A stretch of DNA of 64,000 bases from Hemerocallis citrina (lineage: Eukaryota; Streptophyta; Magnoliopsida; Asparagales; Asphodelaceae), in assembly GCA_017893485.1 (NCBI GenBank), contig CM030367.1:84512853-84576852 (forward strand), given 5' to 3'. Positions 1,513 to 36,240 of this stretch are shown here, piece after piece; position 1 is the first letter of the stretch, and the number at the start of each line of letters is the position of its first letter. The notes beneath the pieces were generated by a model, which was not told the DNA's origin, did not search any database, and saw only the letters and a list, made by a program, of their open reading frames with translations. The translations under genes were made by a program, and so were the position numbers.

Positions 1513-1924
1513 AGTAATCTACCGTGATAATTCCGGGGATTAAATCCCACACCGAAAGCCATACTGAGGTACTTGACCCATGTTCCCGTTCATCATATCA
1601 CCACTAGTGCCTATCCTTATTATTTTTGGGTTACTTAATTACTCAACGAATCTCCTAGAGTTGGTGTATCCTATCGGACTTAACTCAAAACTAAACAACT
1701 GAAATGCCTCAACAGGCCTCAACAAAATAACTCAACGCCGGTATACTAGGGTCACACGCATCCTCTAGAGACTCAAACTCAAATGTCTAAACCAACTTTC
1801 CACCATAAATAGCTCAACTGAATATCTTAAAATCATATGTTTAACAGAAGACAAAGTATAGACTAAAATATTTGAAGACTAATCATTCGGAAGAACATTC
1901 AAGTTTATGAAAACTCATCAGTAC

Positions 1925-2393
1925 CAGTCGACTTATTACTGTAGTAAGTCGACTGTCCAGAGGGGAAAAATATCCATGATTTTAAGAAAATAAGTTAAGT
2001 AATATAAGTTGACTTATAAAAGTCATAAGTTGACTTACCAGATCCTAAGTTGACTTATAAAAACATAAGTCGACTTACCAGATCATAAGTTGACTTATAA
2101 AAACATAAGTCGACTTACCAGAGAGAAATTCCAGAAATCTTTAAGAAAATATTCTAAGTGTTATAAGTCGACTTGCAAAGTCATAAGTTGACTTAAAAGA
2201 GAATATAATTCGACTTAAAAGGTCATAAGTCGACTTACCAGAGAAAAATCTACGATAACTTTGAAAAATAAATTCTAAGTGTATCAGTCGACTGAAAAGG
2301 GTCTAAGTCGACTGTCCAGAACGGATTTTCAAGAAAACTAAAGATCTAGCAGCTGGGTCGTACCAGTCGACTGAAAAGTCTACCAGTCGACTG
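1925..2393. repeat. Array of twin palindromic decamers (cagtcgactg / aagtcgactt)
   Basis: At least fifteen decamers of the form aagtYgactt or cagtcgactg occur here, mostly as pairs with 10-11 bp between them. Examples start at 1925/1946, 2285/2305 and 2364/2384. Many have TG in place of the central CG, as expected from loss of methylated CpG. The partner LTR has the same array at about 19737-20246, with one extra unit near 20040. Confidence 0.85.
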
Positions 2394-3496
2394 TCGGCCT
2401 ACAGTTTGCATAATTTAGGTCTGTACACAATAATCAAATTTGAGTTTTTCTAAAGATTCATTGTTTATGAAAATAATTCGTATTCAGGTAAAAATGACAA
2501 TCTCAAAGTATCCTCAGATTGGGTACATTACTCAAAACAACCCATGTCTCAAAACTCAAGTTCTCATGTTCTAAATTCCTAATTTTTCCATTAGGGTTTC
2601 TCAATACTGAATTTCTTTCACAACTCAAAACCAAAATCTGATTTGTAAACACAAGATCCAGATGCTCACCCATCCGATCATAACCATACTCAAATCTTAA
2701 ACATGCTTTCTAGCAATACAATTTTATAAACCAAGATTTACTCAACATTCTTAGATTTCACATACATGGTACAAACAACAACCTTTGCATCGTTCTCATG
2801 CAAAATACTAAATAACTTACATGCCAAACAAACAACACAACAATCGTTCACATAAAACATACATAAAGCAAAACAACATGTCACTCACCTTAAATGAAGA
2901 AATCCCTTGACAAGAAGTCCCTTCCTTTGTGAGATCCAAAATCCTCTCCCAAGTTCTCCAATAAAATAATAAAGCTTTATGTTTTTGCAGCAAAAGACGG
3001 CTGCGAATTTCCTTTTAAATATCCAGGAAGGAGTTTAGGGTTTTACCCACTTTGCAAAATAATCCCTTCAAAATACAACTTTATATATATAGCTCTATTC
3101 TTGAAAATTCAATAAAATTCATTTAAATTAGGATTTAAAAGTAAAATATAATCCTAAATCTCAACCGGTACTATTCAAAACGTTCAGAAAGTATATTTTA
3201 CATTTTAACCCCTAAAAATGATAAATTTGCAAAAAGGTCCTTCTTTTCTCAAAATTTGCAAATAGTTCCAATTAATTTCAGAAAAATCTGGAAAAATACT
3301 AAATAAATTCCAAATATTAAATAATGATTTTTCATGAAGAAAACTTGACTTTCAAACTTCTCAAGAAAGTATTTGCACGTGTTTTACACGTGTAAAAAGA
3401 TAAATTTTTCTGAAAATATTCATAAATTCTCCAAAAATCATTTTAGTCATTTATAAACCTTTAAAAATAATATTTTAAAAAATACAGGGTTCTACA

Positions 3497-3509
3497 TCAC
3501 TCCCTCCTT
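3497..3509 (-). other. Polypurine tract of the Tekay-type element
   Basis: Immediately inside the 3' LTR the minus strand reads aaggagggagtga, then TGTAGA of the LTR. Position and composition fit the plus-strand primer site of an LTR retrotransposon. Confidence 0.75.
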
Positions 3510-3701
3510 AGAAGAGTTCTGTCCTTAGAACAACTACTTATGAGTCCAAACCACAAACCAACAAAGGAAACAATATCTCATAAATAGAACATAGTCCAAA
3601 CAATTGCATACGATAACACAATCATAATAGAAGGAATACAACTTAACTCAATCAATGGTACAAACATTCAAAAGAATCACAATCATATAAAAGAAATACA
3701 C

Positions 3702-6700
3702 TCATACAAAAAGCTCAGAGAAATTCTTCTGCATGCGATCCTCTGGCTCCCAAGTAGCATTCTCGAACTGCTGATTCCTCCACAATACCTTGACCATAGG
3801 TATCACCTTGCTCCTAAGAACTTTCTCCCTACGATCAACGATCTCAACAGGCTGTTCCTTGTAACTCAAGTTCACCTGTAGATCTTCAGGAACCTCTACC
3901 AACTGATGATTCTGATCTGGCACATACTTCCTCAACAACGACACATGAAATACATCATGCACTTGTGCCAACTCCTCTGGAAGCTTCAATCTATATGCTG
4001 TCTTGCCAATCCGCTCCATGATCCTGTATGACCCAATATACCTTGGCGCCAACTTGCCTCCCTTACCAAACCTGATTACTCCTTTGGTCGGAGACACCTT
4101 GAGGAAAACTGCATCCCCAACCTCAAACTCCAAGTCTCTTCGTCAAGTATCAGCATAACTCTTCTGCCGACTCTGAGCCTCGACCAACCTCTTGCGAATC
4201 AGCTCAATCTGCTCCGATGTCTGCTCCACGATCTCAGGACCATACATCTGCCTCTCGCCAACCTTGTACCAACAAACAGGTGTCCTGCACCTCCGCCCGT
4301 ACAAAGCCTCATACGGTGCCATTCCAATACTCGCATGGTAACTGTTGTTATAAGCAAACTCTACCAATGCTAAGTATCTCTCCCAAGTACCACCAAAATT
4401 CATAACACAAGCCCTCAGCATATCTTCCAGCACTCGATTCACCCTCTCCATCTGACCATCAGTCTGTGGATGAAACACGGTACTGAAATCAGTTCTGGTG
4501 CCTAAAGCTGCTTGTAGGCTCTTCCAAAACCTTGAAGTGAACCTTGTATCTCTGTCGGATACAATCGACACAGGAACTCCATGAAGTCTCACAATTTCAC
4601 CAATGTACAACTCAGCCAATTTCTCCATCGACCAAGTAATCTTCATGGCTAGAAAGTGAGCCGACTTAGTCAAACGGTCCACGATAACCCAAATCGAGTC
4701 ATTGCCCTTCGAACTCCTCGGCAAACCCGTGATGAAATCCATACTGATATTCTCCCATTTCCACTCCGGAATGGGCAACGGCTGTAACAAACCTTCAGGT
4801 CTCTGATTTTCTGCTTTGATCTGCTGACAAGTCAGACACCTTGCCACGAAATCTGCCACATCCCTCTTCATACCAGACAACCAAAAGTGATGTTTGATGT
4901 CCCTGTACATCTTCGTGCCTCCTGGATGAACTGACAACAAGGTACTGTGTGCTTCTTGCAAGATACTATCTCTCAAATCTGCATTATCTGGAACACACAA
5001 CCTCTCACCCAACCAAAGAATTCCATCTTGGACACGAAACTCTGATAGCCTGCCCTATGAAACCTGTTGCAACATCTTCTGAATCTCTGAGTCTGATTTC
5101 TGACCTTCCACAATCCTCTCTCTCAAGGACGGCTGCAGCCTCAACTGAGCCAAAGATACCCCTAATCCTTGCAGCACCACCTCGATACCTGCCTGATCGA
5201 TCTCTGCTGCCAACTCACTTCGAGTAGTGATCAAACTTGATAAACTACTCTTCCTGCTAAGTCCATCAGCCACACATTCACCTAGCCCGGATAATACTTG
5301 ATCTCGGGACGAATGTCTTCCAAAACTTCCAACCACCTTCTCTGCCGAAGATTTAGATCCTTCTGTTGATAAATGTACTTCAGGCTCTTGTGGTCAGTAT
5401 ACATGTTAACCTTCTCACCATAAACATAATGCCTCTACTGCTTCAAGGCATAAATGATAGCTGCTAGCTCCAAATCATGCGTCGGATAATTCTTCTCATA
5501 CGGACGCAATTGCCTCGAACCATAAGCAATAACCTTGCCTTCTTGCATCAAGACACAACCAAACCTCTAAGAGACGCATCACTGAAGATATCATAATCCT
5601 TCCCAGCTTGTGGCAAAGCTAAGATAGGTGCAGTAGTTAACCTCTCCTTTAACACAAGGAATCTCTCCTCACACTTATCAGTCCATGAAAATGCCACATT
5701 CTTCCGGGTCAAACCTGTCGAAGGAACTGCAATCTGAGAATAACCTTGGATGAACCTCCTGTAGTAACCAGCTAAACCCAAGAAACTTTTGACTTCCTTC
5801 ACAGACGTTGGCCTGGGCCAATCCTTCACTGCTTCAACTTTCTGAGGATCAGTGGCCACTCCCTCCTTAGAAAGGATATGACCAAGGAAAGCTACCTCAG
5901 ACTTCCAAAACTCACACTTCGACAACTTGGCATACAAGCCATGCTCCTGCAATTTCTATAATACTGCTGTCAAGTGCGTAGAATGCTCCTCCTCTGACTT
6001 CGAATACACCAAAATATCGTCGATGAAAACCACTACGAAGGAGTCAATAAATGGCCTCAAAACCCGATTCATCATATCCATGAAAACTGCTGGCGCATTC
6101 GTCAACCCGAATGGCATTACCAAAAACTCATAGAGTCCATGACGAGTCCTAAAAGCTGTCTTACTCACATCTTCCTCCTTGACTCGAACCTGATGATGCC
6201 CTGATCTCAAATCAATCTTCGAAAACACTGCTGCTCCTCGAAGCCTGTCGAACAAATCATCAATCCGTGGCAGTGGATACTTATTCTGAATAGTCACCCT
6301 ATTCAACTCCCGGTAGACAATGCACATCCTCATTGACCCATCCTTCTTCTTGACTAACAGCACTGGCGCTCCCCACGGAGAAGAACTCGGCCTAATAAGC
6401 CCTTTGCTCAACAGCTCCTTAATCTGCTTCTTCACTTTATCTTGCTCTACAGGTGCCATCCTGTACGGAGCCTTAGAAATCGGCGCACTCCCCGGCTGAA
6501 CATTGATGCAAAACTCCACATCTCTCTACGGCGGTAATCCTAGAAAATCATCCAAGAACACCTTAGGAAAAATCTCGGACAACCGGTATGCCCTTGACTT
6601 CATCTGGAATTGCCATCTTGGATACCATTGCAGCCACCTTCGAAATCTTCTTCCCTTGGAAAGTCACTACAGGTCCACCTGGTGTTTTCACCAACACCTC

Positions 6701-6857
6701 CTTCTGCTTGCATTCAATTGTGGCATCATATATTGCCATCCAATCAATGCCCACGATGACATCCACACCCAAGACGTGCAGCTCGATCAAATCAATACCG
6801 AACAACCTGCCACCAATCTCGATATCACAGCCCTCGTAATATCGATCAGCGATCAAT
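3702..6857 (-). pseudogene. Decayed pol of the Tekay-type element: protease C-part, RT, RNase H, integrase, chromodomain
   Basis: In element order: the protease remainder (6563-6857), RT (5956-6519) with [11 protein letters not shown], the RT/RNase H connection (5548-5952), RNase H remnants (about 5055-5540), integrase (4143-5012) with an HHCC zinc region, DFITGLP and SDRDTRF, then a 143-codon end (3702-4133) whose last ~50 residues are chromodomain-like (VLWRNQQFENATWEPED). Pieces are separated by in-frame stops and shifts, for example at 4134-4142, 5013-5054 and near 6520. A functional polyprotein would copy the RNA and insert the cDNA, with the chromodomain steering integration; this copy cannot make it. 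Confidence 0.9.
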
Positions 6858-6862
6858 TCTTC

Positions 6863-8534
6863 TGTTGTTGGTTTCTAGCTACCTAAATAAATAGACTAAC
6901 TAGACACAAATTATAAAACCTCGCAAGTGCACGAATCGTTTATAGAATCGTAGTAATAGCAAGGGTCGATCCCACAGAGATTGTAGACTTCGACTTACTA
7001 ATCAATAAAACTAATAATAAAAATGAATAAGAGTTGTTATAATATTCTAAAAGAACTAAAAGATTAAAACTAAGATGAGAGGTGTTGAATCACAAATATC
7101 TCTTGAATAGTTGGGTTGTTGATCTCCACCAATAGTTAGTAATGCTAAGTTGCCTTCTGAATTTACTTCTAATTACTCATGTTTGTTCACCTTGAGGGCA
7201 TGGTATCTACTCCTTAAAGTATTGTTTCCCTAAGCAAAGAATTAGGCATGGTATCTACTCTAATTCGTTTCTTCCCCTAAGTATTTTAGCATGGTATCTA
7301 CTAAGTTATACTTAACAAAAGCATAAGAACAGTGGAAACGAACAAACACTTAAAGTTCTAGAAATTGGTATCAGATCTAGTTCCTTTAAGTTGATTGAAC
7401 CAAGAATCCTAAAGATTCCCTTGTTACAAATTACGAGCACGAGATACGGATCGTCTCAATATGCTCATATAACAGATTCAGATTTCTAACTCACAAACTT
7501 GATAATATCAGATTCTGTATGGCAGTCGACTGGCTCTCACCTTCAGTCGACTGTACTTATAACTCCTGAACAAGTTTGACTGTTATCAATCTATATCAAT
7601 TCAATTAGATTCAATCAATAAGTAAAATAGAAGGATTCAAAAGAACATAGCACTACATAACTACGGCTTCGATCTACCCAACTATGAAATTAGTTCCATA
7701 TAATAATACTTTTATTGCTTAACAAGTTCAAATACATGATCAACATCACAGAATAAAGAGAGAAGAAATAAACTAATGGATTCCGGCAATAGAGTCAACT
7801 GGCTGTCACACAGTCAACTGCCTTCGAGTACTGGTTCACCTCTTCCCCTTCTTCGATGATGATGGAATGAAGCACTGGTTGATGACTTGATGGTTGGGAA
7901 TTCTAAGATTAAGTTGCGTCCAAGAGATAGATGCCTCCTGCTATAGATGATCTTTTCTGATATTTATAGAGTACCGCTGAGAATTAGGGTTTCCCCTTTT
8001 TTAGGGGAAAAATCTTCTTGATTTGATATTTATGTCTTTCTCTTTTTTCTTTCCTTCCTTATCTGTTCACCACGTGCTTTTGCCAATTTCCAGTCTTTAG
8101 ATTTGATTCGTTGCATAAGATCTAGATTTAAATAGATTTGAAATTAGATTTGGGTGAATCTTCGAATATCTTATCTGTTTACTCCGCCGCAGACCAGTCG
8201 ACTTATCTTCGAACCAGTCGACTGAGTCGAGACTCCTGAAGATTTCATAATTGTTCAGACCAGTCGACTGTCTTTTGGGAGTGAGTCGACTGTGTCGAGA
8301 GTTGTGGAAAATCAGCTTCTCTTGTCCAGTCGCCTGTGTTGGGGAACCAGTCGACTGATCCTCTGCAGTTTGCTGTGTATTGTCCTTGAAGTCCTAAATC
8401 TGCTTCGTTTTTCTGTTATAAGCTGTTTCCTATGGAAAAGAGAAAATAGGAGTTAAATACCACATATAGAGCTTTTAAATGTCTAATTATAACAAGATTA
8501 TTGCTCTAGAAAGTGAATAATATTGTGTTCATCA
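6863..8534 (-). repeat. 3' LTR of the Athila-type element
   Basis: Begins tgttgttgg and ends gttcatca on the plus strand, matching 15178-16849 nearly base for base. Paired decamers start at 7523/7544, 8195/8215, 8261/8283 and about 8326/8347, plus a deaminated pair near 7792/7811. The interior inner flank (8535 on) gives a G-rich tract, gggggtatt on the minus strand, as polypurine tract. Confidence 0.92.
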
Positions 8535-8829
8535 AATACCCCCAAACTTAGATTTTGCTTGTCCTCATGCAAACTAAAATTATGAATAGGGAGAATAATA
8601 ATCACAATAGACTCAACCACCAAGATTTCTTATTATGTGGACATCAGCATAGAAAGGTATAAACAATTTCAGACAAAGTAAAATTAAACATATCCACTTT
8701 CTCTAGTGCAATTGTTCAGTCATAATCCCCAAACTTAATCATATTTGTCATGCGATTAATGTAGTTATAGTATGCAACTACTCAGTCTGTGATTATCCCT
8801 TTTTTCTACTACAAACCGAGTAGCAAACT

Positions 8830-8865
<36 letters not shown>

Positions 8866-9535
8866 TTAGTCTCTTCTCTAAAGATGTCACTTGCCTTTTG
8901 ACGCGAATGCGAAACATTTGTGATGTATCCACCCGGTTACTCAACAAGTCACAAACTCTAAAGTGCTTTGCATACTCATATTTTGAGTTGCCGTTTGACG
9001 TAAAGGTAAACATTGGTGATGAATACCCCTAGTTACTAAGCACTCAAAACATTGGAGTAGATTGACTTTATTCAAATATATATATATATATATATATATA
9101 TTTTATCACTCTATTTACTTAAACTCAATTTAGGACTAGATCTAAAGGGAATAATCATCAGAAAAAGCATCACATTTGTTTATTATGTATAATCGCATGG
9201 CTTCTATAACTTCGTAGGGAATTATGAAACTCAACAATCCTAAAGTAAATGAGTATCCTTCTTCTTACTTTATAAGAAATTGTTTATCCTAAAAAAAATT
9301 CAAATATAAATGACCCTAATACCCCAAAGCTTAGATGGAACATTGTCCTCAATGTTCGAATATAAAAATAGGCATGTGTCACCATCTAGTAAGGAGATAC
9401 TGAAAATAAAAAGAACTAAAAGAAAAATAATGAATAACTGAAAGCAAATAAAGGAAAGTGTAAATACTCCCCTGAAAAATTGGGTTGCCTCCCAATAAGC
9501 GCTGTGTTTTCTGTCTTCAGCTAGACATGATGAGT
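8535..9535. other. Non-coding 3' region of the Athila-type element
   Basis: Between integrase and the 3' LTR there is about 1 kb without a convincing gene. It contains a homopolymer T run (8834-8862), a TA run near 9080-9100, and a minus-strand 79-codon frame (9300-9539) without recognisable domains. Athila elements often carry an env-like gene in this position; I see none here. Confidence 0.6.
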
Positions 9536-12200
9536 TCATGCGATGTATGGAATGGTTTGAAGATTCACATCTTCCTCTTGTAGTTCTAGACTCATCTCTA
9601 TGTATGGCTTCGCTCTATGTCCATTCACCTTGAATGTTTGATTTTTTTCTTCGCTGTGAACTTCCAGTGCTCCATGTGGAAAGACTTTTGTGACAATATA
9701 TGGTCCATACCATCGTGACTTAAGCTTGCCTGGAAAGAGTCTTAATCTTGAGTTGTAGATCAATACCTTTTGTCCTTCATAAAACTCCTTCCTTGCTAAT
9801 TGTTTATCATGGTATAACTTAGTCCTTTCCTTGTATAGCTTGGCATTTTCATATGCATCGTGCCTCAATTCTTCAAGCTCATTTAGTTGCAATCTCCTTT
9901 TGTCACCTGCCTGTTTCATATCAAAATTGTACTTTTTGATAGCCCAATAAGCTTTGTGTTCTAATTCTACCGGCAGATGACATGCTTTTCCAAAGACCAA
10001 ACGGTATGGTGACATGCCAATGGGTGTCTTGAAAGCAGGTTCTGTAGGCCCATAAGGCATCGTTCAAGCGTAGTGACCAATCCCTTCTGCTTGTATTGAC
10101 TGTCTTTTCCAAGATGCTCTTGATCTCTCTATTGCTAAGCTCCACCTGTCCACTGGTTTGAGGATGATAAGGGGTCCCCACTCTATGTGTAATACCATAC
10201 TTCTTCATTAAAGAAGCAAATGGAAAGTTGTTGAAATGGCTCCCTCCATCACTAATTATCGCTCGTGGTGTACCAAACCTAGTGAAAATGTTCTCCTGCA
10301 AGAACTTGACAACAACTTTGTGATCATTAGTTTTTGAGGGGACAGCCTCGACCCATTTAGACACATAATCTACACCAACAAGAATATATAAATAACCAAA
10401 TGAGTTAGGAAAAGGACCCATGAAGTCGATTCCCCAAACATCAAAAAGCTCGATTACTTGTATGTTGTGCAGTGGCATTTGATTTCTAGAAGAGATGTTG
10501 CATGTCCTTTGGCATTTGTCGCAAGTCCTGCAAAAAGAAAAAGCATCTTTGAATACATTAGGCCAATAAAAACCAGATTGCAATACCTTTAGTGCTGTTC
10601 TTTTTGGTCCAAAATGTCCTCCACAGGCATATTGGTGGCAGTGTTGTAGAACACTCATTTGTTCTTCGTCTGCCACACATCTTCGTATAATTTGATCAGG
10701 GCAGAATTTGAATAGATAAGGGTCATCCCAATAAAAGTGTTTGCACAGAGCCACCAATCTTTTCCTTTCTTGATGTGTCATACCTGGAGGGAAAACATGA
10801 GCAGTTAGAAAATTGACAATATCAGCAAACCATGGGAGCTGTTCGGAGAGACAAGTCGACTGGTTTAAGGACCAGTCGACTGCCCCGAGAGATTGCACAT
10901 TGATTTCAAATAGTTGTTCATCTGGGAAATTTTCATTCAGCGGGGGCACATTTCTCTCTTCCTCGTGCAGTAATCTGGACATGTGATCTGCCACAACATT
11001 GTCGCTTCCTTTCTTGTCTCTAATCTCAAGATCGAATTCTTGAAGCAACAGCACCCATCTGATTAACCTAGGCTTAGCATCCTTTTTAGCAAACAAATAT
11101 CTCAAGGCAGCATGGTCAGTAAAAACAATAACTTTAGACCCAATTAAGTATGATCTAAACTTCTCTACAGCAAAAATAACAGCTAACATTTCTTTTTCAG
11201 TAGTGGAATAATTTAGTTGTGCATCGTTTAAAGTTCGAGAAGCATAGTAGATAACATGAGGTTTCTTATTGATTCGTTGACCTAAAACAGCCCCTAAAGC
11301 ATAATCACTTGCATCACACATAAGCTCGAAAGGATGGCTCCAATCTGGTGCCATGACTATAGGTGCAGAAATGAGAAGATTTTTCAATGTATTAAAAGCA
11401 TTTGTACATTCTTTTGTCCATACAAACTCAACATCCTTAGCCAACAAGTTACAAAGGGGTTTGGAGATTTTTGAAAAATCTTTTATGAGTCTTCTATAAA
11501 ACCCCGCATGTCCTAGAAAACTCCTAACACCCTTAACTGTAGTGGGAGGGGGTAGTTTCGATATTATATCGATTTTTGCTTTGTCTACCTCTATTCCTCT
11601 TTTGGACACCACATGTCCCAACACAATACCTTGTTGTACCATAAAATGGCACTTTTCCCAATTCAGCACTAAATTGCATTCTTCACATCTTTTAAGCACA
11701 AGCTGCAAATGGTTAAGGCATTCATCAAAACAAGATCCAAAAACACTAAAATCATCCATAAATACCTCGATGAACCTTTCCACCATGTCTGAAAATATGC
11801 TCATCATGCATCTTTGAAATGTTGCTGGTGCGTTGCACAATCCAAACGGCATCCTCCTGTAAGCAAAAGTACCAAAAGGACATGTAAAAGTGGTTTTTTC
11901 TTGATCTTCTGGAGCAATAGCAATTTGATTATAGCCACTATAGCCATCTAAGAAACAGTAATGACTATATCCTGCTAATCTTTCTAACATTTGATCAATA
12001 AAAGGAAGAGGGAAGTGATCTTTCCTAGTTTCATTATTCAATTTCCTATAGTCAATGCATACCCTCCATCCTGTGATTACTCTTGTTGGGATAAGTTCAT
12101 TCTCGTCATTTGTTACCACTGTAACTCCACTTTTCTTAGGAACTACATGTATAGGACTTGCCCATTTGCTATCTGAGATAGGGATAGATGATGCCAACAT
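9536..12200 (-). pseudogene. Athila pol: reverse transcriptase, RNase H, integrase (two frameshifts)
   Basis: The 759-codon frame 9921-12200 holds RT ([18 protein letters not shown] as catalytic Asp-Asp), RNase H ([12 protein letters not shown]), an HHCC integrase zinc region ([10 protein letters not shown] to CDKCQRTC), then [18 protein letters not shown] and [10 protein letters not shown], giving the integrase D, D and E. The true frame enters from gag-protease by an indel near 12185: gag ends in a wrong-frame PYLR while the expected ISDSKWASP follows in this frame. Near 10045 a second shift moves the integrase C-terminus (after LWAYRT) into the 9536-10060 frame, which ends at about residue 174. 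A twin decamer at 10853-10882 is translated in the linker between RNase H and integrase ([10 protein letters not shown]). Confidence 0.9.
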
Positions 12201-15057
12201 CTAGTAGCTTCAAAATTTCTGCTCTTACCACTTCCTTCATGTTGGGGTTGAGCCTTCTCTGTGCCTCTCTGCTAGGTTTTGCATTGTTTTCAAGTAGTAT
12301 TCTATGCATGTACTTGGATGGACTTATTCCCTTGATGTCTGCAATGGTCCATCCTATTGCACTCTTGTGTTCTCGTAATACCTTCATCAACTTATATTCT
12401 TCCTGTGCACTCAAGTTCGCAGCAATTATTACTGGTAGCGTCTGGTTCTCGCCTAAAAATGCATGCTTCAAATGGTCGGGCAACTGCTTAAGTTCTATGT
12501 CTGGAAGTTTCTGTACAGTCGACTGGGCCATGTCAGCAGTCGACTTGTTCTGGGTGTCTTGATTCGGTCGACTGGTTAGAATACCAGTCGACTTACCCTG
12601 TTCATCAGTCGCTTGATCTGTAGAAGAACAATTTTTATCAGACACCAATTTTTCAAATAAAGGTGCAGGCTTACCTGAATATGACTGTGGAGTTTCAAGG
12701 TGATGTACTGTCTCTGCAATCCTCCAGTCATCGTATTCCTGTTCAACATGAGATAAAGTTAGAGATTGAGTGATTGTGGCTTGAAGTGGTTCAACGCTAT
12801 GTACCTGAAATGTTTGATCAACAATCTCCTGCACCACATCAATATTATAGCATTCATGATCATCTTGTGGTAATTTTAGTGTATCAAACATTTTAAATTC
12901 CACCTTTTCTCCGTTTATCTTCATACTTATAATGCCCTTTTTAACACAAATTTTTATATCAGCTGTACTCATAAAGGGCCTACCTAATATGATCGGTAGA
13001 GATGATGACATTGAAGATTCTTCCATGTCCAACACAACAAAATCAGCAGGCAAAATAAAATCATTTACCTGAACTAGGACGTCTTCTAAAATACCTCTAG
13101 GTCTTTTTATGCTGCGATCAGCCAATTGCAAAGTGATGGATGTTGGCTTGAGTTCCCCCAATCCAAGCTTTTCGTAAATAGAATAAGGAAGAAGGTTGAT
13201 GCTTGCCCCCAAGTCTAGCAGTGCCTTTTCAAAGAAGTGCTCACCAACCTTGCAAGAAATGGTAAAACTACCTGGATCTTTCAGTTTAGGTGGTAATTTT
13301 CTTAATAATACCGCACTCACTTCTTCTGTCAAAGCCACATCCTCCTTAACCTGAAATGTTCTTTTGTGAGTACAACAGTCTTTCAAAAATTTGGCATAAG
13401 AAGGAATTTGTTTAATAGCATCGAGTAGGGGAATATTAATTTCTACCTTTTTGAGAGTTTCAAAGACGTCAAATAAATGTTGTTCTTTCTTTTTATTGAC
13501 TAACCTTTGAGGGAATGGTGGTGGAACTGTCCCTACTTTTTCACTTACCTTACTTGAACCCAAAGCTTTTGATGGTTGTGTATCTGGTTTATCTGTATGT
13601 GTTCCAACCATGTTATCAATTATCTTACCATTTCTTAGGGTTGTGACTGCTTGGAGCTGTTCTTGACCTCCAGGGTTTGGTATGGTTTGTGAAGGGAGTT
13701 CTCCTGCCTTTCGTTCGCTTAACTCTTTTGCAATCTGACCAATTTGTGTTTCTAACTTCTGAATTGCTTGTCCTTGTTGGTTGCTTGTTTGATGTTGTTG
13801 TTGGAGCAGTTGAAGAACGGTGGACTCAAAATCCAACTTCTTCTGTTCTGGGGCTGGTCGATCAAACCCACTTCCCATCTGAAAGTTTCGTGCATGTCCT
13901 TGTGCAATTTGATGCCCTTGATTATTTTGATTATTGCTCCATGAGAAGTTTGGATGATTCCTCCATCCTGGGTTATATGTGTTCGAGTATGGATTGTTCT
14001 TTGGTGGAAACACTCCTCGACCCACATAGTTCGCATGCTCCTGATCTGTGAAAGTAGACATGGGACATGTATCAGTTGTGTGATCTAAATGAGAACAAAT
14101 TGCACACATTTCATTTGTTTGATTTTTAACTCCACCCATCGTCGACATTGCATTAACAAGCATATCAATTTTCTTATTCATGTTTGCCATTTCTAATTGA
14201 ATGTTATTACTATTAGAGATTTCGTAAACTCCCTGTTTTTTCGAAGGGCCCCTTCTTGTTGAGAATTGTTGAGAGTTCTCGCTGAGTTCTTCAAAAAGTT
14301 CAATGACTTCTTCTCCACTTTTCCTCATCAAAATTCCATTGCAGGCTGCATCAACAATTGCCTTGTTAGTGTCATTTAAACCTTCATAAAAAGCTTGTAC
14401 CTGATCATCCTTAGGCAGATTGTGAGTAGGACACTTGAGAAGCTTGCTCTTGAAATCCTTCCATGCTTCGAAGAATAGATCTCCATCTTTTTGTTGGAAG
14501 AGTTGAATCTCCCTTTTTAGCTGTTTGGTTTTCTGGGCTGGAAAGAACTCTTTCAAAAATTTTGTTGCCAATTGCTCCCATGAATTAATTGATCCTGGTT
14601 CCAAAGAATTATACCACAACTTAGCATTAAGTTTTAAAGAAAAAGGAAACAAGATTAACCTGATTTGTTCAGCGGTAAGCCCTTGGATGCTTTGTGTCCT
14701 GCAAAGATCGAAAAAGTCTTGCAAGTGAAGATGAGGCTCTTCATCTGGTTCGCCACTAAAGTGGGGAACCATACTAAGTAAATGAGGAGATAGGTGCATG
14801 TTCCCTGTAGCATTAGGTTGAAAAGCAATGCAGGAAGGTTGCTCAATATTCTTAGGAGTGAATTTGTCCTGCATTGGCACTCGATTTTGTATTTCTTCAG
14901 CCATTGTTGTCTGTGAGATTGGTCTCTGTGCAGTCGACTGGGCCCGTACAGCAGTCGACTGGTTGGCTGAAACTAGCTTACCTAGTCTGTGCAAAGTGCG
15001 TTCTGTTTCTGCGTCAATAGGTAGTAGCTCTGGACGAAGTGATCGTCTACCGTGCAT
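12169..15057 (-). CDS. Athila Gag-protease
   Basis: A 962-codon open frame. The N-terminus ([13 protein letters not shown]) is followed by a linker with two in-frame decamer copies ([10 protein letters not shown]), a retrotransposon gag capsid region (about residues 95-270; [20 protein letters not shown]), one CCHC zinc knuckle ([14 protein letters not shown], about residue 318) and a Gln-rich stretch. The aspartic protease has the box [13 protein letters not shown], with DLG in place of DTG as is usual in Athila. A second decamer cluster (12516-12594) is translated after the protease ([10 protein letters not shown]). Gag packages the RNA and protease cuts the polyprotein. The frame is intact up to the pol junction, where an indel near 12185 breaks read-through. 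Confidence 0.9.
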
Positions 15058-15152
15058 TCACCGAAGTCCTGTAACCTAAAAGAAAAATTATTAATAAAAG
15101 AAAAGAAAAACTAATAAAAATTCTACTGACTTGTAAGTTAAAATACTAAACA

Positions 15153-15171
15153 ATCCCCGGCAGCGGCGCCA
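15153..15171 (-). other. Primer binding site for tRNA-Asp (Athila)
   Basis: The plus strand reads atccccggcagcggcgcca, matching the 3' end of plant tRNA-Asp (ending CCCCGGCAACGGCGCCA) with one mismatch. On the element strand this is the TGGCGCCGCTGCCGGGGAT primer site, seven bases inside the 5' LTR. Confidence 0.88.
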
Positions 15172-15177
15172 AAAACT

Positions 15178-16849
15178 TGTTGTTGGTTTCTAGCTACCTA
15201 AATAAATAGACTAACTAGACACAAATTATAAAACCTCGCAAGTGCACGAATCGTTTATAGAATCGTAGTAATAGCAAGGGTCGATCCCACAGAGATTGTA
15301 GACTTCAACTTACTAATCAATAAAACTAATAATAAAAATGAATAAGAGTTGTTATAATATTCTAAAAGAACTAAAAGATTAAAACTAAGATGAGAGGTGT
15401 TGAATCACAAATATCTCTTGAATAGTTGGGTTGTTGATCTCCACCAATAGTTAGTAATGCTAAGTTGCCTTCTGAATTTACTTCTAATTACTCATGTTTG
15501 TTCACCTTGAGGGCATGGTATCTACTCCTTAAAGTATTGTTTCCCTAAGCCAAGAATTAGGCATGGTATCTACTCTAATTCGTTTCTTCCCCTAAGTATT
15601 TTAGCTGGTATCTACTAAGTTATACTTAACAAAAGCATAAGAACAGTGGAAACGAACAAACACTTAAAGTTCTAGAAATTGGTATCAGATCTAGATCCTT
15701 TAAGTTGATTGAACCAAGAATCCTAAAGATTCCCTTGTTACAAATTACGAGCACGAGATACGGATCGTCTCAATATGCTCATATAACAGATTCAGATTTC
15801 TAACTCACAAACTTGATAATATCAGATTCTGTATGGCAGTCGACTGGCTCTCACCTTCAGTCGACTGTACTTATAACTCCTGAACAAGTTTGACTGTTAT
15901 CAATCTATATCAATTCAATTAGATTCAATCAATAAGTAAAATAGAAGGATTCAAAAGAACATAGCACTACATAACTACGGCTTCGATCTACCCAACTATG
16001 AAATTAGTTCCACATAATAATACTTTTATTGCTTAACAAGTTCAAATACATGATCAACATCACAGAATAAAGAGAGAAGAAATAAACTAATGGATTCCGG
16101 CAATAGAGTCAACTGGCTGTCACACAGTCGACTGCCTTCGAGTACTGGTTCTCCTCTTCCCCTTCTTCGATGATGATGGAATGAAGCACTGGTTGATGAC
16201 TTGATGGTTGGGAATTCTAAGATTAAGTTGCGTCCAAGAGATAGATGCCTCCTGCTATAGATGATCTTTTCTGATATTTATAGAGTACCGCTGAGAATTA
16301 GGGTTTCCCCCTTTTTAGGGAAAAATCTTCTTGATTTGATGATTTATGTCTTTCTCTTTTCTTCTTTCCTTCCTTATCTGTTCACCACGTGCTTTTGCCA
16401 ATTTCCAGTCTCTAGATTTGATTCGTTGCATAAGATCTAGATTTAAATAGATTTGAAATTAGATTTGGGTGAATCTTCGAATATTTTATCTGTTTACTCC
16501 GCTGCAGACCAGTCGACTTATCTTCGAACCAGTCGACTGAGTCGAGACTCCTGAAGATTTCATAATTGTTCAGACCAGTCGACTGTCTTTTGGGAGTGAG
16601 TCGACTGTGTCGAGAGTTGTGGAAAATCAGCTTCTCTTGTCCAGTCGCCTGTGTTGGGGAACCAGTCGACTGATCCTCTGCAGTTTGCTGTGTATTGTCC
16701 TTGAAGTCCTAAATCTGCTTCGTTTTTCTGTTATAAGCTGTTTCCTATGGAAAAGAGAAAATAGGAGTTAAATACCATATATAGAGCTTTTAAATGTCTA
16801 ATTATAACAAGATTATTGCTCTAGAAAGTGAATAATATTGTGTTCATCA
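15178..16849 (-). repeat. 5' LTR of the Athila-type element
   Basis: Near-identical partner of 6863-8534. The minus strand holds the promoter of the element by position. At about 16110-16132 this copy keeps cagtcgactg where the other LTR has cagtcaactg, consistent with CpG decay at this motif. Confidence 0.92.
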
Positions 16850-16854
16850 TCTTC

Positions 16855-17081
16855 ACCTGACGGCGTTGCCACCGACAATACCTTGCCTGGAAACAACTTA
16901 GGCTCCACACCTAAGATCTTTGCAAATTTTGGCGATACAAAAGTATGCGATGAACCAGTATCAAATAAAACATTTGCCTTTATTCCATTAATTAAAACAA
17001 TTCCTGTTCTAAGAAGAGTGATACTCAATCTCCAATTGTTCTCAAATAAAGGTTTTACTTATTACATTGATTAAAATAAAA
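16855..17081 (-). pseudogene. N-terminal half of the Tekay protease, separated by the Athila insertion
   Basis: Minus-strand frame with GIKANVLFDTGSSHTFVSPKFA; DTGSS is the aspartic protease active site. The frame runs to the tcttc duplication and continues on the far side of Athila at 6857 (MIADRYYEGCDIEIGGR and on), which shows exactly where the nested insertion landed. Confidence 0.85.
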
Positions 17082-18171
17082 TCAAAACTCTTGCATACCC
17101 TGTATTACATCTTCCGAGTTACCAGCGTCCTCCTCGGTTAATGCAAATACTCGCACTTGCCTCTGGAATTTGCTTCCACCTGAACCATCCTTCCTCAATT
17201 GTGGACAATAGGGCTTGGAATGTCCTGCCTGCCCACACTGGGAACAAATCTGCTTCGCCAACTTCGGACACGCTGACCTGTAATGTCCTGCCTCCTTGCA
17301 GTAATAACAAGTCACTCCCTGAGTTGCAGGTGCCTTCTGCACCGGATCACTGAACTTGATCTGCTTCGCAGGGGAATCCCTTCCCACTCTGACCTGATGC
17401 TGGGCTCTTGTTCCTGTTCCATGTATCTTGCCTCTTCTGGAACTAGTCCATGTCCTCCTCAGTCATAGCTGCTCTTCTAACCAGCTTGTCGAACCTTCTG
17501 ATGCCCAACGGGATCATCCTCGACCTCAAGTTTGGCCTCAAGCCCTTCTCAAACTTTTTGGCCTTCTTCGCCTCGTCAACGACCAACTCTGGTGCATACC
17601 TCGAAAGCTGAGCAAACTTAGTCTCATACTCCCGCACGGTCATGCTACCCTGCTGAAGGTTCAGGAACTCGGTCGCCTTCTTCTCCTGAACATCTAGGGA
17701 AAAGAAGCGATCCCTGAATTCCTCCAGAAAAGCTTCCCAAGTCATCGGCTGGTCTTCCAAAGTCCTCTTCAGCGATTCCCACCAGACACCAGCGTCCTTT
17801 TCCAGCTGCATCGTAGCCAACTTCACCTTGCTGGCTACCGGAGTTTCCGATACCTCGAAGATTGTCTCTATCCTCCTAATCCAATCATCAACTGCAGTTG
17901 GATCAGACTGCCCCTAAAAAACTGGTGGCCTCATCCTCTTAAAGGACTCGATCTGCTTGATAGGATCGGCGTTAACCAATCCCTGTCCAGCTCCATGATT
18001 CTGCTGCTGGTTCTGCTGTTGATTCTGACTTTGCGCCAAATTAAATGCCATTAGCGCATTCAGAGTCTGATACACCTTGGCGAATTCAGCCTCAAGATCG
18101 ATTCCAGTTCCTCGAGAAATACCAGATCCATCCTCATTGTTACCACCATTCCTGGGCCTGGGTGCAACCAT
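17082..18171 (-). pseudogene. Tekay Gag with two zinc knuckles (frame broken)
   Basis: Starts at ATG 18171 (MVAPRPRNGG), followed by a Gln-rich N-terminal segment. The retrotransposon gag capsid region lies in 17443-17826 (LEKDAGVWWESLKRTL, then FFSLDVQEKKATEFLNLQQG). Two CCHC knuckles are at 17082-17387 (CYYCKEAGHYRSAC and CSQCGQAGHSKPYC). Stops or shifts separate these pieces, for example around 17913 and 17443. The knuckles bind the element RNA in working copies. Confidence 0.88.
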
Positions 18172-18389
18172 TCTGAATACTGCAAAACGAGGGAAAAGTT
18201 AGAGCATCACACACCATTCAAACTCACATCAATATCCTTTGGCAAAACTTCAATTGTATCCCAAAGGTAAAACATCATGTTTCAGTTCTATGTGATACTC
18301 ACTATTTAATGTCCACACCAAGGTACTCACACTCTAGTATCCACACCTAGGTTATTTTTATGCCATGTTTATTATTACTATTGAAGCAT

Positions 18390-18401
18390 GCTCTGATACC
18401 A
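18390..18401 (-). other. Primer binding site for initiator tRNA-Met (Tekay)
   Basis: The minus strand reads tggtatcagagc, complementary to the 3' end of initiator tRNA-Met, five bases inside the 5' LTR edge at 18407. This is the usual primer for chromoviruses. Confidence 0.9.
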
Positions 18402-18406
18402 ATCTC

Positions 18407-21330
18407 TGTAGCGCCCCGAATTTCTAATATAATAACTTAGAAAATACGTGGCGCAATCCCAGCATCCACTTCAATGTAACATTAAACACAACCAACTCCA
18501 CTAAAATTTTCAATTTTTATTACCACAATCTCCTACATAGCACAGCGGAATTTAAAAACATCTCAAATCAAAATTTTCTTTTATTCACAACACAGTCTTT
18601 TTACAACACTGTTTTGCAAATTTACACAAAACTCTAATAAATCAATTTATCTCAAAACTATCTCAAGCATCCAAACCTCCAATCTCTAAGCAACAACCTG
18701 CAACACATGAGGCTAGAGATGATCCCTAATCCCCCAAAACTAAAGGGGTCAGCCATAAATGGTGTGAGTGACATAAAACAACAAACAACATAAATGAACA
18801 TTAGTCATGAATCCTTAAACAACAGGTAGTAAACATGAATACATAAAATACGATGTAGTAAGGAAAAGTAAACAATAAGTGAGACTAAACCAAGTGTCAT
18901 GTGTAGAAAACAGGAAATTCACATGCATGAAAACCAAGTCAAGAAATCATAAATTCTATATGCGGACTCTCTAATGCGTACTTGTCGAAGTCTATGCATC
19001 CCACTCTACATAGGTTCGGTGCAAGCCCTTAACGTCTTCACTTCATAGGGTTCAATCCCCCGCTATGCAACTAATCCTGTCACGATGACTACTATGAGAT
19101 AAAGATAAACTGTGAGTATTAGCCCATGCCCCGATAATTCCGGAGATAGATCCCACACCTCAGGTATTTTACCTGGATAATTCCGGAGATCATCCCACAC
19201 CGAAAGCAATGACCTCATCACACGAATACCACATGTGCGTCGCCTCGACCCCGATAATTCCGGAGATCATTCCCACACCACAAGTAATTACCGTGATAAT
19301 TCCGGAGATATATCCCACACCACAAGTAATCTACCGTGATAATTCCGGGGATTAAATCCCACACCGAAAGCCATACTGAGGTACTTGACCCATGTTCCTG
19401 TTCATCATATCACCACTAGTGCCTGTCCTTATTATTTTTGGGTTACTTAATTACTCAACGAGTCTCCTAGAGTTGGTGTACCCTACCGGACTTAACTCAA
19501 AACTAAACAACTGAAATGCCTCAACAGGCCTCAACAAAATAACTCAACGCCGGTATACTAGGGTCACACGTATCCTCTAGAGACTCAAACTCAAATGTCT
19601 AAACCAACTTTCCACCATAAATAGCTCAACTGAATATCTTAAAATCATATGTTTAACAGAAGACAAAGTATAGACTAAAATATTTGAAGACTAATCATTC
19701 GGAAGAACATTCAAGTTTATGAAAACTCATCAGTACCAGTCGACTTATTACTGTAGTAAGTCGACTGTCCAGAGGGAAAAATATCCATGATTTTAAGAAA
19801 ATAAGTTAAGTAATATAAGTTGACTTATAAAAGTCATAAGTTGACTTACCAGATCCTAAGTTGACTTATAAAAACATAAGTCGACTTACCAGATCATAAG
19901 TTGACTTATAAAAACATAAGTCGACTTACCAGAGTGAAATTCCAGAAATCTTTAAGAAAATATTCTAAGTGTTATAAGTCGACTTGCAAAGTCATAAGTC
20001 GACTTAAAAGAGAATATAAGTCAACTTAAAAGGTCATAAGTCGACTTAAAAGAGAATATAAGTCAACTTAAAAGGTCATAAGTCGACTTACCAGAGAAAA
20101 ATCTACGATAACTTTGAAAAATAAATTCTAAGTGTACCAGTCGACTGAAAAGGGTCTAAGTCGACTGTCCAGAACGGATTTTCAAGAAAACTAAAGATCT
20201 AGCAGCTGGGTCGTACCAGTCGACTGAAAAGTCTACCAGTCGACTGTCGACCTACAGTTTGCATAATTTAGGTCTGTACACAATAATCAAATTTGAGTTT
20301 TTCTAAAGATTCATTGTTTATGAAAATAATTCTTATTCAGGTAAAAATTACAATCTCAAAGTATCCTCAGATTGGGTACATTACTCAAAACAACCCATGT
20401 CTCAAAACTCAAGTTCTCATGTTCTAAATTCCTAATTTTTCCATTAGGGTTTCTCAATACTGAATTTCTTTCACAACTCAAAACCAAAATCTGATTTGTA
20501 AACACAAGATCCAGATGCTCACCCATCCGATCATAACCATACTCAAATCTTAAACATGCTTTCTAGCAATACAATTTTATGAACCAAGATTTACTCAACA
20601 TTCTTAGATTTCACATACATGGTACAAACAACAACCTTTGCATCGTTCTCATGCAAAATACTAAATAACTTACATGCCAAACAAACAACACAACAATCGT
20701 TCACATAAAATATACATAAAGCAAAACAACATGTCACTCACCTTAAATGAAGAAATCCCTTGACAAGAAGTCCCTTCCTTTGTGAGATCCAAAATCCTCT
20801 CCCAAGTTCTCCAATAAAATAATAAGCTTTATGTTTTTGCAGCAAAAGACGGCTGCGAATTTCCTTTTAAATATCCGGGAAGGAGTTTAGGGTTTTACCC
20901 ACTTTGCAAAATAATCCCTTCAAAATACAACTTTATATATATAGCTCTATTCTTGAAAATTCAATAAAATTCATTTAAATTAGGATTTAAAAGTAAAATA
21001 TAATCCTAAATCTCAACCGGTACTGTTCAAAACGTCCAGAAAGTACATTTTACATTTTAACCCCTAAAAATGACAAATTTGCAAAAAGGTCATTCTTTTC
21101 TCAAAATTTGCAAATAGTTCCAATTAATTTCAGAAAAATCTGGAAAAATACTAAATAAATTCCAAATATTAAATAATGATTTTTCATGAGGAAAACTTGA
21201 CTTTCAAACTTTTCAAGAAAGTATTTGCACGTGTTTTGCACGTGTAAAAAGATAAATTTTTCTGAAAATGTTCATAAATTCTCCAAAAATCATTTTAGTC
21301 ATTTATAAACCTTTAAAAATAATATTTTAA
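18407..21330 (-). repeat. 5' LTR of the Tekay-type element, outer end truncated
   Basis: Matches 554-3496 but stops at aatattttaa (21330), where the partner LTR continues for about 18 more bases to tctaca. It keeps the standard orientation of the block inverted in the other LTR (18888-19324) and has an extra 42-bp duplicate inside the decamer array near 20040-20082. Sequence from 21331 shows no relation to the gene fragment at 1-553, so a deletion or rearrangement followed integration. Confidence 0.9.
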
Positions 21331-22506: not shown

Positions 22507-23769
22507 CTACAGTCCTGTGAAATGGAGATGGCGAAGTTGCTGTACTTCTTCTGTATCTGCTAAATCCCTTTGGTATGAAATATCAGTGACGTGAGTTAAT
22601 TGGTCATTTATTGCTTCTTGTTCGTTTATTAGTTTTCCAATTCGAATATTTCTTTCATGGTCATAATATAAGTATTCTTCTGCAGTGATGGCCTTGTTTC
22701 GATAGTGAGCATCTTCTAATTCAAACAATTCTTTTTTGTTTAAATTTGTTATTTCTATTTCTTTGGGATGTAGTATTTTATCTGTTTCAAGTACCAAAGT
22801 TTCAATGTATTCTATGTGAACTAAATCTGTATCTAAGTCCATTTCGATGTTACTAATATTCCTATTGACTTGGGGAACATAATCTGTAAATCTGACACTA
22901 GTTTTTCCTTTAGCATTAGTATATATTAGGGAGTCTTGTGGTACGATGGTTGTTATTGGGTCTATAAACCTATCTAAATTCCAATCTAACCCTTCTAGTC
23001 TTGTTGAGTCATACTCTAATGGTTTAACCATTTTAATCCCTTTACTACTTAGTGAATCAACTACTTCTTTTATATTTATTTTATATTTTACTTTAGAGTT
23101 GGTTGTTATCCTTCCTAGGAATGCTATATGCACTAATAAGTTGTCACCTGTATTTACTTCTTCATACCCTTTGGTTTGTATACCTATATGTATATGTTTA
23201 CTAATGTCTTTTATGGTTATCATGAAATTTGGGCTGCAGTAAAATATTCCTGAATTACTATTCATATCTACTTCTATGCTTGCTATCATCCCCTTTGTCA
23301 TATTATTCCACCTATCATCATATAGTGTTATTAAAACTTTACAACCTAAATTTTTTCTCATTAATCCTTTAATACCAATGATTATTAGTCCTATATGCTT
23401 AAATTTATAATTGTTTCTAGCTTGCCTTAGTTCACTACTTGCAGCCTGGCTAATCAAAGGTAGACTTATCGTTTGGTTTCCAAGACAGCTTACTGCTTGT
23501 TCTCTATTATGCCTAAAGAATTCTATTCTAAACTCAAATCTTCCTGTTTGGTACAATGTTCTAGGATTGAGTATGGTTAATCCTTCTCTTTGAAATCTGT
23601 CATAGTCTTGTTCTGGATCTATTAATTCATCTAATTGAACTTCATGATTATTAGCATGTCTGCTAAATAGTCTCTCTAGTAAAGGTTTTGAACTACTGAC
23701 TGAAGGTCTGCTGGTTGAACCTTGTTCTGTAGATCTAAGAGTTCTAGAGGGTTCTATAAAAGTCTGCAT
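22507..23769 (-). CDS. Caulimovirid movement protein (endogenous copy)
   Basis: A 420-codon open frame starting at ATG 23769, 12 bp after the stop of the upstream small ORF; tight packing is normal for these viruses. The central 200 residues show the 30K-type movement protein pattern (a hydrophobic core with IGLIIIGIKGL and a following LDW region). In a virus this protein forms tubules at plasmodesmata for cell-to-cell spread. The frame is unbroken here although the neighbouring coat region is not, which could be chance in a fairly recent fragment. Confidence 0.75.
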   Translation of the reverse strand: MQTFIEPSRTLRSTEQGSTSRPSVSSSKPLLERLFSRHANNHEVQLDELIDPEQDYDRFQREGLTILNPRTLYQTGRFEFRIEFFRHNREQAVSCLGNQTISLPLISQAASSELRQARNNYKFKHIGLIIIGIKGLMRKNLGCKVLITLYDDRWNNMTKGMIASIEVDMNSNSGIFYCSPNFMITIKDISKHIHIGIQTKGYEEVNTGDNLLVHIAFLGRITTNSKVKYKINIKEVVDSLSSKGIKMVKPLEYDSTRLEGLDWNLDRFIDPITTIVPQDSLIYTNAKGKTSVRFTDYVPQVNRNISNIEMDLDTDLVHIEYIETLVLETDKILHPKEIEITNLNKKELFELEDAHYRNKAITAEEYLYYDHERNIRIGKLINEQEAINDQLTHVTDISYQRDLADTEEVQQLRHLHFTGL

Positions 23770-32140: not shown

Positions 32141-32425
32141 GATTTTTCCCCAAAATAGGCCACTTTTTCAAACTAATTTCCAAAATAGACCACTTTCGAA
32201 ACTAATTCCCAAAATAGACCGCGCGCAGTTCCCAACTGCGTCCTATTCTATTTTTTTGACGTAGTTGGCAACTGTGGTCTAAGTATATGCCACAATAATC
32301 CAACTCCAACAATTGTATCAAAATAGTGTTAAGGACAAAACTATGTTCATCTTATACCGCAGTTGACAATTGCGTTGTTGATTGCACTAAGCATGTAGTT
32401 CCCAACTATATTCCTAATTCAATCC
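32141..32425 (+). repeat. Left TIR of the MULE
   Basis: Matches the reverse complement of 52967-53251 throughout, including the short palindromes cgcagttcccaactgcg (about 32224) and gcagttgacaattgc (about 32375) and the line agtgttaaggacaaaactatg. By position it includes the MURA promoter. Confidence 0.9.
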
Positions 32426-36130: not shown

Positions 36131-36240
36131 CGCAGTTTCCAACTGTGCTAAAGTTAATACAAGGAGTGCAGTTGGCAACTGCGACTATCAACTCTCCAGG
36201 TTTTTAGAGAGTTGGCAACTCTCTGGAAAATTGGTTGTAA
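36131..36240. repeat. Left part of the central palindrome array of the MULE
   Basis: Contains cgcagtttccaactgtg, gtgcagttggcaactgcg and agagagttggcaactctct in the unit order seen again from 48086. The array is cut here by the LTR inserted at 36246; the target copy ctttg is at 36241-36245. Confidence 0.85.

Follow-up and report, generated by a model that had tools for sequence, protein, structure and literature searches.

In bacteria of the genus Rickettsia, short palindromic elements, longer than the sites described below and having a common body sequence, enter protein genes in frame. In plants, the closest described systems concern transposons, and we summarise them from the parts of the reports available to us. 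The VANC target motifs of Arabidopsis VANDAL transposons are short and sequence-specific and accumulate, also by tandem repetition; the VANC6 motif is also present in AT9TSD1, which is unrelated to VANDAL, and can act over a whole element (PMC5735166, PMC10398659). Brassicaceae COPIA families have independently and repeatedly gained clustered heat-responsive elements (HREs) for heat shock factors (HSFA2 in ONSEN), once by duplication of a proto-site (PMC5059998). At the level of single sites, GTCGAC in the Arabidopsis FT promoter is bound by the bZIP factor FD (PMC13360168), and insertion sites show a weak preference for palindromes (PMC6911290). Here we describe a pair of short palindromes, held at a nearly fixed spacing, in long terminal repeat (LTR) retrotransposons of Hemerocallis citrina. 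The starting point was a stretch of 64,000 nucleotides (contig CM030367.1, positions 84,512,853 to 84,576,852), called the window below. No report of the motif was found in the openly searchable literature, and among the matches listed for the decamer string no paper was, by its title, on retrotransposons.

The unit consists of two palindromes of 8-10 bp, (C/A)AGTCGACT(G/T), whose centres lie 19-22 bp apart. In the window, the octamer core AGTCGACT occurs 45 times, versus 0.52 expected and a maximum of 2 in 100 shuffles, and CAGTCGACTG occurs 21 times versus 0.02 expected; among palindromic octamers, only TATATATA and ATATATAT are more numerous. All copies of AGTCGACT except one are within two LTR retrotransposons (44 of 45), and the remaining one, at 40434, is within chance. 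The original prediction had reported the palindrome as recurring in two unrelated elements, which is correct and understated.

Both retrotransposons lie on the minus strand within positions 1-21330. An Athila-type element (6863-16849), flanked at both ends by the 5-bp target-site duplication TCTTC, is nested in an element called Tekay, which is of Ty3 type as judged from the Integrase_H2C2 and rve domains in its open reading frame (ORF) at 4143-5012. The names Athila and Tekay are the labels of the original prediction, used here as provisional lineage names. The parts of the two elements are as follows, with sites counted at up to one mismatch.

1513..3478, minus strand: Tekay 3' LTR, 16 sites
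6863..8534, minus strand: Athila 3' LTR, five pairs
9921..12200, minus strand: Athila pol ORF (reverse transcriptase, RNase H and integrase domains in relatives)
12169..15057, minus strand: Athila gag-protease ORF
15178..16849, minus strand: Athila 5' LTR, five pairs
19325..21330, minus strand: Tekay 5' LTR, 18 sites

The Tekay stretch 16850-19324 is devoid of AGTCGACT. In the Athila LTR, TATA-like boxes are present at 67 and 568, with five exact cores at 179-332 between them and the remainder past 568; in the Tekay LTR the boxes are at 24 and 388-392, and every core is past both.

Pairing was scored in the Athila element on a single-copy set made of the 5' LTR and the internal region, LTR twins being counted once, with at most one mismatch per site. 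The 18 sites found form nine pairs, all nine spaced by 19-22 bp and with mostly unlike spacers, whereas random placement of 18 sites gave a mean of 0.15 gaps at 19-22 bp and a maximum of 3 in 20,000 trials. An unpaired near-match, AGTCGATT, with one mismatch, is found at 10424. In the Tekay LTR, the sites form three isolated pairs as well as two arrays spaced at 20-22 bp. Pairs and arrays are listed below, without strand.

1926..1954: pair, spacing 21, Tekay 3' LTR
2007..2115: array, six sites at 20-21 bp, four of the six being AGTTGACT (CpG decayed)
2166..2235: array, four sites at 20-22 bp, two altered
2286..2313: pair, spacing 20
2365..2392: pair, spacing 20
7524..7552: pair, spacing 21
7793..7819: pair, spacing 19, both AGTCAACT; second site intact in the other LTR (16126)
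8196..8223: pair, spacing 20
8262..8291: pair, spacing 22
8328..8356: pair, spacing 21, first site AGTCGCCT
10854..10881: pair, spacing 20, frames VDW and QST, RNase H-integrase linker, within a 54-nt segment missing from locus L015
12517..12613: protease-reverse transcriptase linker cluster, 12517/12538 and 12566/12586, with a one-base-deleted fifth site at 12606
14932..14960: pair, spacing 21, gag N-terminal region
15838..15866: pair, spacing 21
16107..16133: pair, spacing 19 (AGTCAACT and AGTCGACT)
16511..16538: pair, spacing 20
16577..16606: pair, spacing 22
16643..16671: pair, spacing 21, one site AGTCGCCT
19738..19766: pair, spacing 21, Tekay 5' LTR
19818..19926: array, six sites at 20-21 bp
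19977..20088: array, six sites at 20-22 bp
20139..20166: pair, spacing 20
20218..20245: pair, spacing 20

The ten pairs of the original prediction were all found at their places and spacing, one of their twenty sites (12565) being CGGTCGACTG, with one mismatch. The prediction had missed two pairs, 7793/7812 at 19 bp and 8328/8349 at 21 bp, together with the Tekay 20-bp arrays and the site at 12606.

To see how far the arrangement extends, the window's own genome (3,775,421,867 bases, 701 contigs) was scanned on the forward strand with the pattern CAGTCGACTN{8,14}AGTCGACT, in which the first core must be preceded by C (CAGTCGACT...AGTCGACT). The resulting counts are lower bounds, represent copies rather than independent events, and had their surroundings inspected for a small part only, in which most pairs lay in retrotransposons of different kinds. 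The pattern gave 171,126 forward matches, versus one for the pattern read backward and 0-4 per strand for the reversed controls. Core spacings of 16-18 accounted for 3,488, which leaves at least 167,638 pairs at 19-22. There were 1,300 at 9-15 (all 100 places listed having spacing 12), 4,201 at 23-29 and 1,364 at 30-33. Expressed as pairs per base of spacing, these values are 186 (9-15), 1,163 (16-18), 41,910 (19-22), 600 (23-29) and 341 (30-33). The peak is thus at two turns of the helix only. Per base, distances near one turn (within 9-15) or three (30-33) are 100-200 times rarer, which places the constraint either in the two-turn geometry itself or in the 9-12-base loop of an RNA hairpin. 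The two-turn spacing proposed in the original prediction therefore holds as a sharp genome-wide peak at 19-22, and fails as plain helical phasing. Neither was the module confined to two families or indifferent to spacing. Searches of viral contigs gave 5 pattern matches and no relative of the two Athila ORFs, and an Rfam search of 1-22000 matched no known RNA family.

The same preference was seen in an unselected sample of twenty 10-kb stretches, taken at fixed places on contigs C1-C10. It contained 30 exact cores, in 6 of the 20 stretches, and 26 of the 30 had a partner (at most one mismatch) at 19-22 bp. In a pool of 256 kb, which includes the window and loci chosen by the pattern, with L042-L044 left out, 106 of 111 cores had a partner at 19-22, compared with 1 at 9-12, none at 12-15, 15-18 and 23-26, 6 at 27-30, 1 at 31-34, 2 at 35-38, 10 at 39-42 and 14 at 43-46. 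The partners at longer spacing are probably adjacent pairs or array members. Among the first 100 listed pairs of the genome, which come from the beginning of a single contig and include LTR twins, 78 distinct spacers were found, at spacings of 19 (3 pairs), 20 (47), 21 (39) and 22 (11).

Pairs were found in both Ty3-type and Ty1/copia elements, in LTRs and in gag and pol linkers, in line with the spread between lineages that had been predicted. Athila-type loci with cores are L037, L038, L042 and L043. By integrase identity to the window's Tekay, L026, which has cores, stands at 92%; L035 and L036 (92-93%) are situated between listed pairs and have no cores of their own; and L010-L013, which have pairs, are more distant (73%). 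On the copia side, cores of L017 lie within a copia-type gag (PF14223, zinc knuckle), L009 is a related copia element (Pol_BBD and gag_pre-integrs domains), and pairs also occur in L044, another copia element (Pol_BBD). The gag linkers of L009 and L017 have three exact cores in common, with different adjoining bases; where L017 has a fourth core, L009 reads AGTTGACT, and at two more sites both are altered. Three loci (L006, L007 and L041) with 9, 9 and 16 cores had no match to the queries used. In the stretch read, no exact core was present in Athila-type L015 and L034 or in the Tekay relative L018 (integrase 75%). That the paired palindrome is genome-wide, sharply spaced at two turns and present in both superfamilies is, as a description, nearly certain.

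Frames beside site clusters in different elements also start alike, with CFLPCLQDP in L008 and L010-L013 and CLLSRLQDP in L017, possibly a second shared segment.

Cores are located in gag and pol frames, where all three codon phases are used. The eight coding sites of the window read as QST or KST in six cases and VDW in one, as the original prediction had it (QST or VDW, in frame), and in one case in the third frame, SRP. Across six loci, 37 exact cores fall within retrotransposon frames, with codon phases of 7/26/4 (related copies counted). Selection at the peptide level for QST was considered and rejected, because all three phases are used and a pair survives a frame change. Among relatives from other sources no such coding module was seen, except for QST-type pairs in two of 120 gag relatives (P0035 at residue 386, P0054 at residue 349), reading QSTQQ(I/M)FQST; these were seen as protein only and are not at the window's positions.

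Between RNase H and integrase, the linker could be measured in 133 of 240 relatives: 125 have 6-8 residues, seven have 11-12 and one has 18, versus 25 in the window, and the closest relative, P0245 (83%), has 18 residues fewer than the window. The protease-reverse transcriptase linker is 65 amino acids in the window and 32 in P0245, the sole anchor-matched relative of 240; with other anchors, the values are 60 in the window and 26 in L015. The gag N-terminal region, at 16-49 residues in nine relatives and 36 in the window, is too variable for an insertion to be called.

Within the genome, the difference can be followed between close copies. The pol linker segment is present in the window, L037, L038 and L042 and missing from L015 (34 versus 16 residues, that is, 54 nt in frame), whose flanks are 89/83% identical to those of the window. 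L038 is 93% identical to the window upstream and 91% downstream of this linker (about 330 bp on each side), and both of its cores are exact, while the spacers, GGTCCTTAAACC in the window and AGTAACAGGACC in L038, are alike at only 5 of 12 bases, and the frames are VDW and QST in the window versus QST and SRL in L038. At the protein level, L042 is about 95% identical to the window; it holds the window's coding modules and, in gag, an extra 42-nt in-frame pair. The window, L037, L034 and L015 have no such segment there (L043 was unaligned across it and is not counted). Read from the alignment, the segment consists of two 21-nt periods, each starting like the local ACAA(G/A)CCAG, which suggests that it may have arisen by slippage or template switching at short homology. 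As the majority of relatives are without them, we infer that the 54- and 42-nt segments were gained rather than lost. The original prediction's alternative of a small palindromic element able to enter genes thus finds support in this in-frame presence and absence, whereas a classical mobile element is not supported, the spacers being unlike and direct repeats around the 12 window modules tested being no more than chance.

The sites themselves are symmetrical little beyond the decamer. Among 18 Athila sites, complementarity around the axis of the site was seen in 12 at the fifth base pair and in 1 at the sixth, and in 18 Tekay sites it was 15 and 11 of 18 before falling to 4 of 18 at the seventh, so that symmetry stops at the tenth base in Athila and at about the twelfth in Tekay. 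Decay is largely as predicted for methylated CpG: among unique copies of both elements, 7 of 10 octamers with a single substitution were C-to-T or G-to-A at the central CpG, and one central-CpG change distinguishes 7812 from 16126, in the two Athila LTRs.

In the Athila pairs, the bases that follow the first and the second site are alike at 1-5 of 11-14 positions, so simple tandem duplication does not explain the pairs. Taken together, the Athila modules have spacers and flanks close to background in similarity. Not every module is independent, as 19 of 66 module pairs showed flank or spacer similarity at p<0.05 where about 3 were expected. The Tekay arrays at 2007-2115 and 2166-2235, with their twins, are partly tandem duplications of 40/42-bp units (20/40-bp repeats). 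As a sole cause, tandem duplication was thus rejected for the Athila element, while for much of the Tekay arrays it was accepted. The LTRs of the two families show no significant similarity beyond the cores (27 versus a null median of 26).

In the LTRs of Athila and Tekay alike, a further motif, GCAAACTGYAG, lies at equal distance from the first pair, just upstream of it when read in element sense. Its four copies in the window (0.05 expected) are at 2399-2409 and 8363-8373, with LTR twins at 20252-20262 and 16678-16688. The adjoining module pair has a similarity p of 0.0015.

Selection at the level of nucleic acid is the simplest reading of these data, because frame and spacer change and cores and geometry do not. 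We propose that the pairs are sites for a dimeric, sequence-specific protein, as yet a putative binder, selected at the DNA level and acquired by several lineages, and would give this proposal about an even chance of being right. A composite protein site fits because the cores are palindromic, are shared by different lineages and have no orientation. In this proposal, where we infer protein binding, the protein's identity, the benefit to the elements, the direction of gain and the way of insertion, one dimer of a nuclear protein would sit on each palindrome, and two dimers would touch on the same helix face in a single fixed arrangement. Binding would benefit the LTR retrotransposons of both superfamilies, either through LTR promoter activity or because silent chromatin would be opened or kept off along the element, a role considered because sites occur in both the LTRs and the body. 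The elements would go on gaining pairs and retaining them, including in-frame pairs within protein linkers, and new pairs would arise via small in-frame insertions and 20-21 bp duplications, perhaps assisted by template switching at the palindromes' short homology. Possible, though on balance doubtful, is a wider version, in which one paired-palindrome tag would be a common currency of unrelated LTR retrotransposons of both superfamilies. The tag would be acquired as in-frame micro-segments in LTRs and linkers, with palindromes and two-turn geometry kept while the spacer turns over, and would be recognised in trans by a single factor of the host or of the element. It would serve either as a platform against silencing or as a tag for RNA dimerisation and co-packaging, spreading itself in the latter case by template switching.

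Several observations weigh against the protein-site proposal. Simple helical phasing is insufficient, given the rarity of one- and three-turn spacings, and a hairpin in RNA whose loop has 9-12 bases leads to the same range of spacings. Both U3 and U5 are transcribed, so that all sites could act in genomic RNA. Some modules are related by duplication, and GCAAACTGYAG at equal distance in both LTR families hints at a measure of shared ancestry. Family copies make up most of the genome count, independent gains being far fewer. The pair is not universal among relatives and thus not essential, as L015, L034 and L018 illustrate by having no exact core in the stretch read. Finally, spacer turnover was not seen in every comparison, since L042 keeps the window's pol-linker module nearly unchanged (spacer GGTCCTTCCACC).

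The strongest rival is a signal at the RNA level, since any two such palindromes double as an inverted repeat and a limit on the loop could account for the exclusive spacing. In retroviral RNA, palindromes are known to signal dimerisation. Here the pair would tag RNA for packaging or dimerisation and be swapped between families by template switching during reverse transcription of hetero-dimers, which would explain its spread between co-packaged families. The self-complementary arms can form a 10-bp hairpin with a loop of 9-12 bases, or pair with any RNA bearing the palindrome; all 18 window pairs tested fold as hairpins, and a loop-length limit fits the strict 19-22 spacing without peaks at one or three turns. 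However, a hairpin requires complementary arms, and not that all arms be one and the same palindrome. None of four double-changed pairs was compensatory, and 33 pairs had one arm changed, though these data are few and G-U pairs were uncounted. Nor do the spacers bring a clear gain in stability: compared with shuffled spacers, 3 of 9 Athila pairs reached p<0.05 in the sense orientation, with combined Fisher p values of 0.07 (sense) and 0.17 (antisense). Moreover, we know of no co-packaging by Ty1 and Ty3 capsids. On balance, the RNA signal appears unlikely, while carrying real weight.

Another possibility is a functionless palindromic passenger, spreading by template switching or slippage of reverse transcriptase at microhomology and persisting in harmless linkers. 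The discrete in-frame presence or absence of the 54- and 42-nt segments, the two 21-nt periods opening with local sequence, and the location in linkers, which are tolerated places, are all in its favour. Yet a passenger should carry its spacer along, and the spacers are diverse beside exact cores, with spacing still 19-22 after the spacer has changed. Direct repeats around 12 window modules, which would indicate target-site duplication, averaged 4.6, versus 4.5 by chance. Because spacers are not common to the copies and flanking duplications are not beyond chance, a pure passenger is the less likely, and we consider it improbable.

Ordinary descent with tandem duplication, in which a few LTR families happen to bear the motif and copy number does the rest, accounts for the Tekay arrays, for adjacent Athila LTR modules and two coding modules that look duplicated, and for the many genome copies that are family copies. 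It does not account for pairs in Ty1/copia and several Ty3 elements, for 78 distinct spacers in the first 100 places, for two LTR families dissimilar outside the cores, or for close copies that fill one linker with a different spacer and frame, and is in our view quite improbable as a full explanation. A host-side mark, that is, a methylated CpG silencing target read by a repressor and kept by hitch-hiking with no benefit to the element, would suit the central CpG, the predominance of CpG transitions in decay and the usual methylation of such elements, and is nonetheless the least probable of all, to the point of being hardly credible, since elements would be expected to lose such sites and close copies differ by a whole pair, with cores exact beside a changed spacer.

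Thus the observation behind the original prediction is confirmed, and its interpretation partly supported, the proposed role in protein binding or recombination being putative. To our knowledge, the evolution of host-factor recognition by transposons is known mostly from single families; here one strict composite site is present in both superfamilies, even in coding linkers, and near-identical copies with and without the pair open gain, selection and binder to direct testing. Should the binder prove to be a chromatin or transcription factor, the genome holds more than 10^5 composite sites for it; if the pair is an RNA tag, it would open a route for exchange between retrotransposon families; and if the wider version, the common currency, is true, transposons would be converging on a sub-element of a new class.

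A second palindrome, AGTTGNCAACT, offers a parallel case in other repeats of the window, with 13 copies versus 0.06 expected (32263, 36170, 36210, 48132-48569 and 53021). It is hosted by a 282-bp dispersed repeat (32143-32424 and 52968-53249), a short repeat (36131-36245) and a fold-back array, 630 bp long and built from 117-bp units (48085-48715), and several copies are 36-41 bp apart. Next to the Tekay LTRs, 554-1512 repeats 18407-19365, the flank of the 3' LTR corresponding to a region inside the 5' LTR, with the LTR-proximal half (1036-1512) inverted; this is a tandem, LTR-sharing element with a small inversion. Further on, a 420-amino-acid ORF at 22507-23769 (minus strand) resembles what we take to be the movement-protein region of endogenous plant pararetroviruses, 38688-44223 (minus strand) presumably holds ORFs of a long interspersed nuclear element (LINE), and 58190-58882 (plus strand) is presumably a PIF/Harbinger-like transposase ORF. 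A host gene at 53389-54741 (plus strand) was identified by search as AED3-like aspartyl protease; among the best 120 of 1313 relatives, the top identity was with Iris pallida (69-71% in two of the three proteins listed), and the best E-value among the matches listed was with Tetracentron sinense (65%).

Compared with the known systems, the present sites resemble Rickettsia palindromic elements in being in-frame segments of protein genes, present or absent as 54 and 42 nt, and differ in that only the cores are common, with no body sequence (78 distinct spacers per 100 pairs). As far as the accessible text of the reports goes, the FD site holds the inner six bases of the core, but is a single motif in a host promoter (PMC13360168); bZIP factors that accept TCGA-containing sites may be taken, by analogy and as a lead only, as candidate binders. 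The insertion-site palindromes concern targets, whereas the present palindromes sit inside elements (PMC6911290). With VANC targets, as presented in the same available parts, the sites share the property of a short motif common to unrelated transposons, here Ty3 and Ty1/copia. The VANC motif, however, is placed there in non-coding regions of VANDAL and in tandem repeats, is not described there as a fixed-spacing palindromic pair, and, as an anti-silencing target, has a transposon-encoded binder and goes with loss of methylation, while here cores are present in gag and pol frames of six loci (PMC5735166, PMC10398659). The HREs, in the part of that report available, are nGAAn clusters in the LTRs of a few COPIA families, in tens of elements and with no coding sites mentioned, whereas the present sites are palindrome pairs at two turns, in LTRs and coding linkers alike, and in at least 1.6 x 10^5 copies (PMC5059998).

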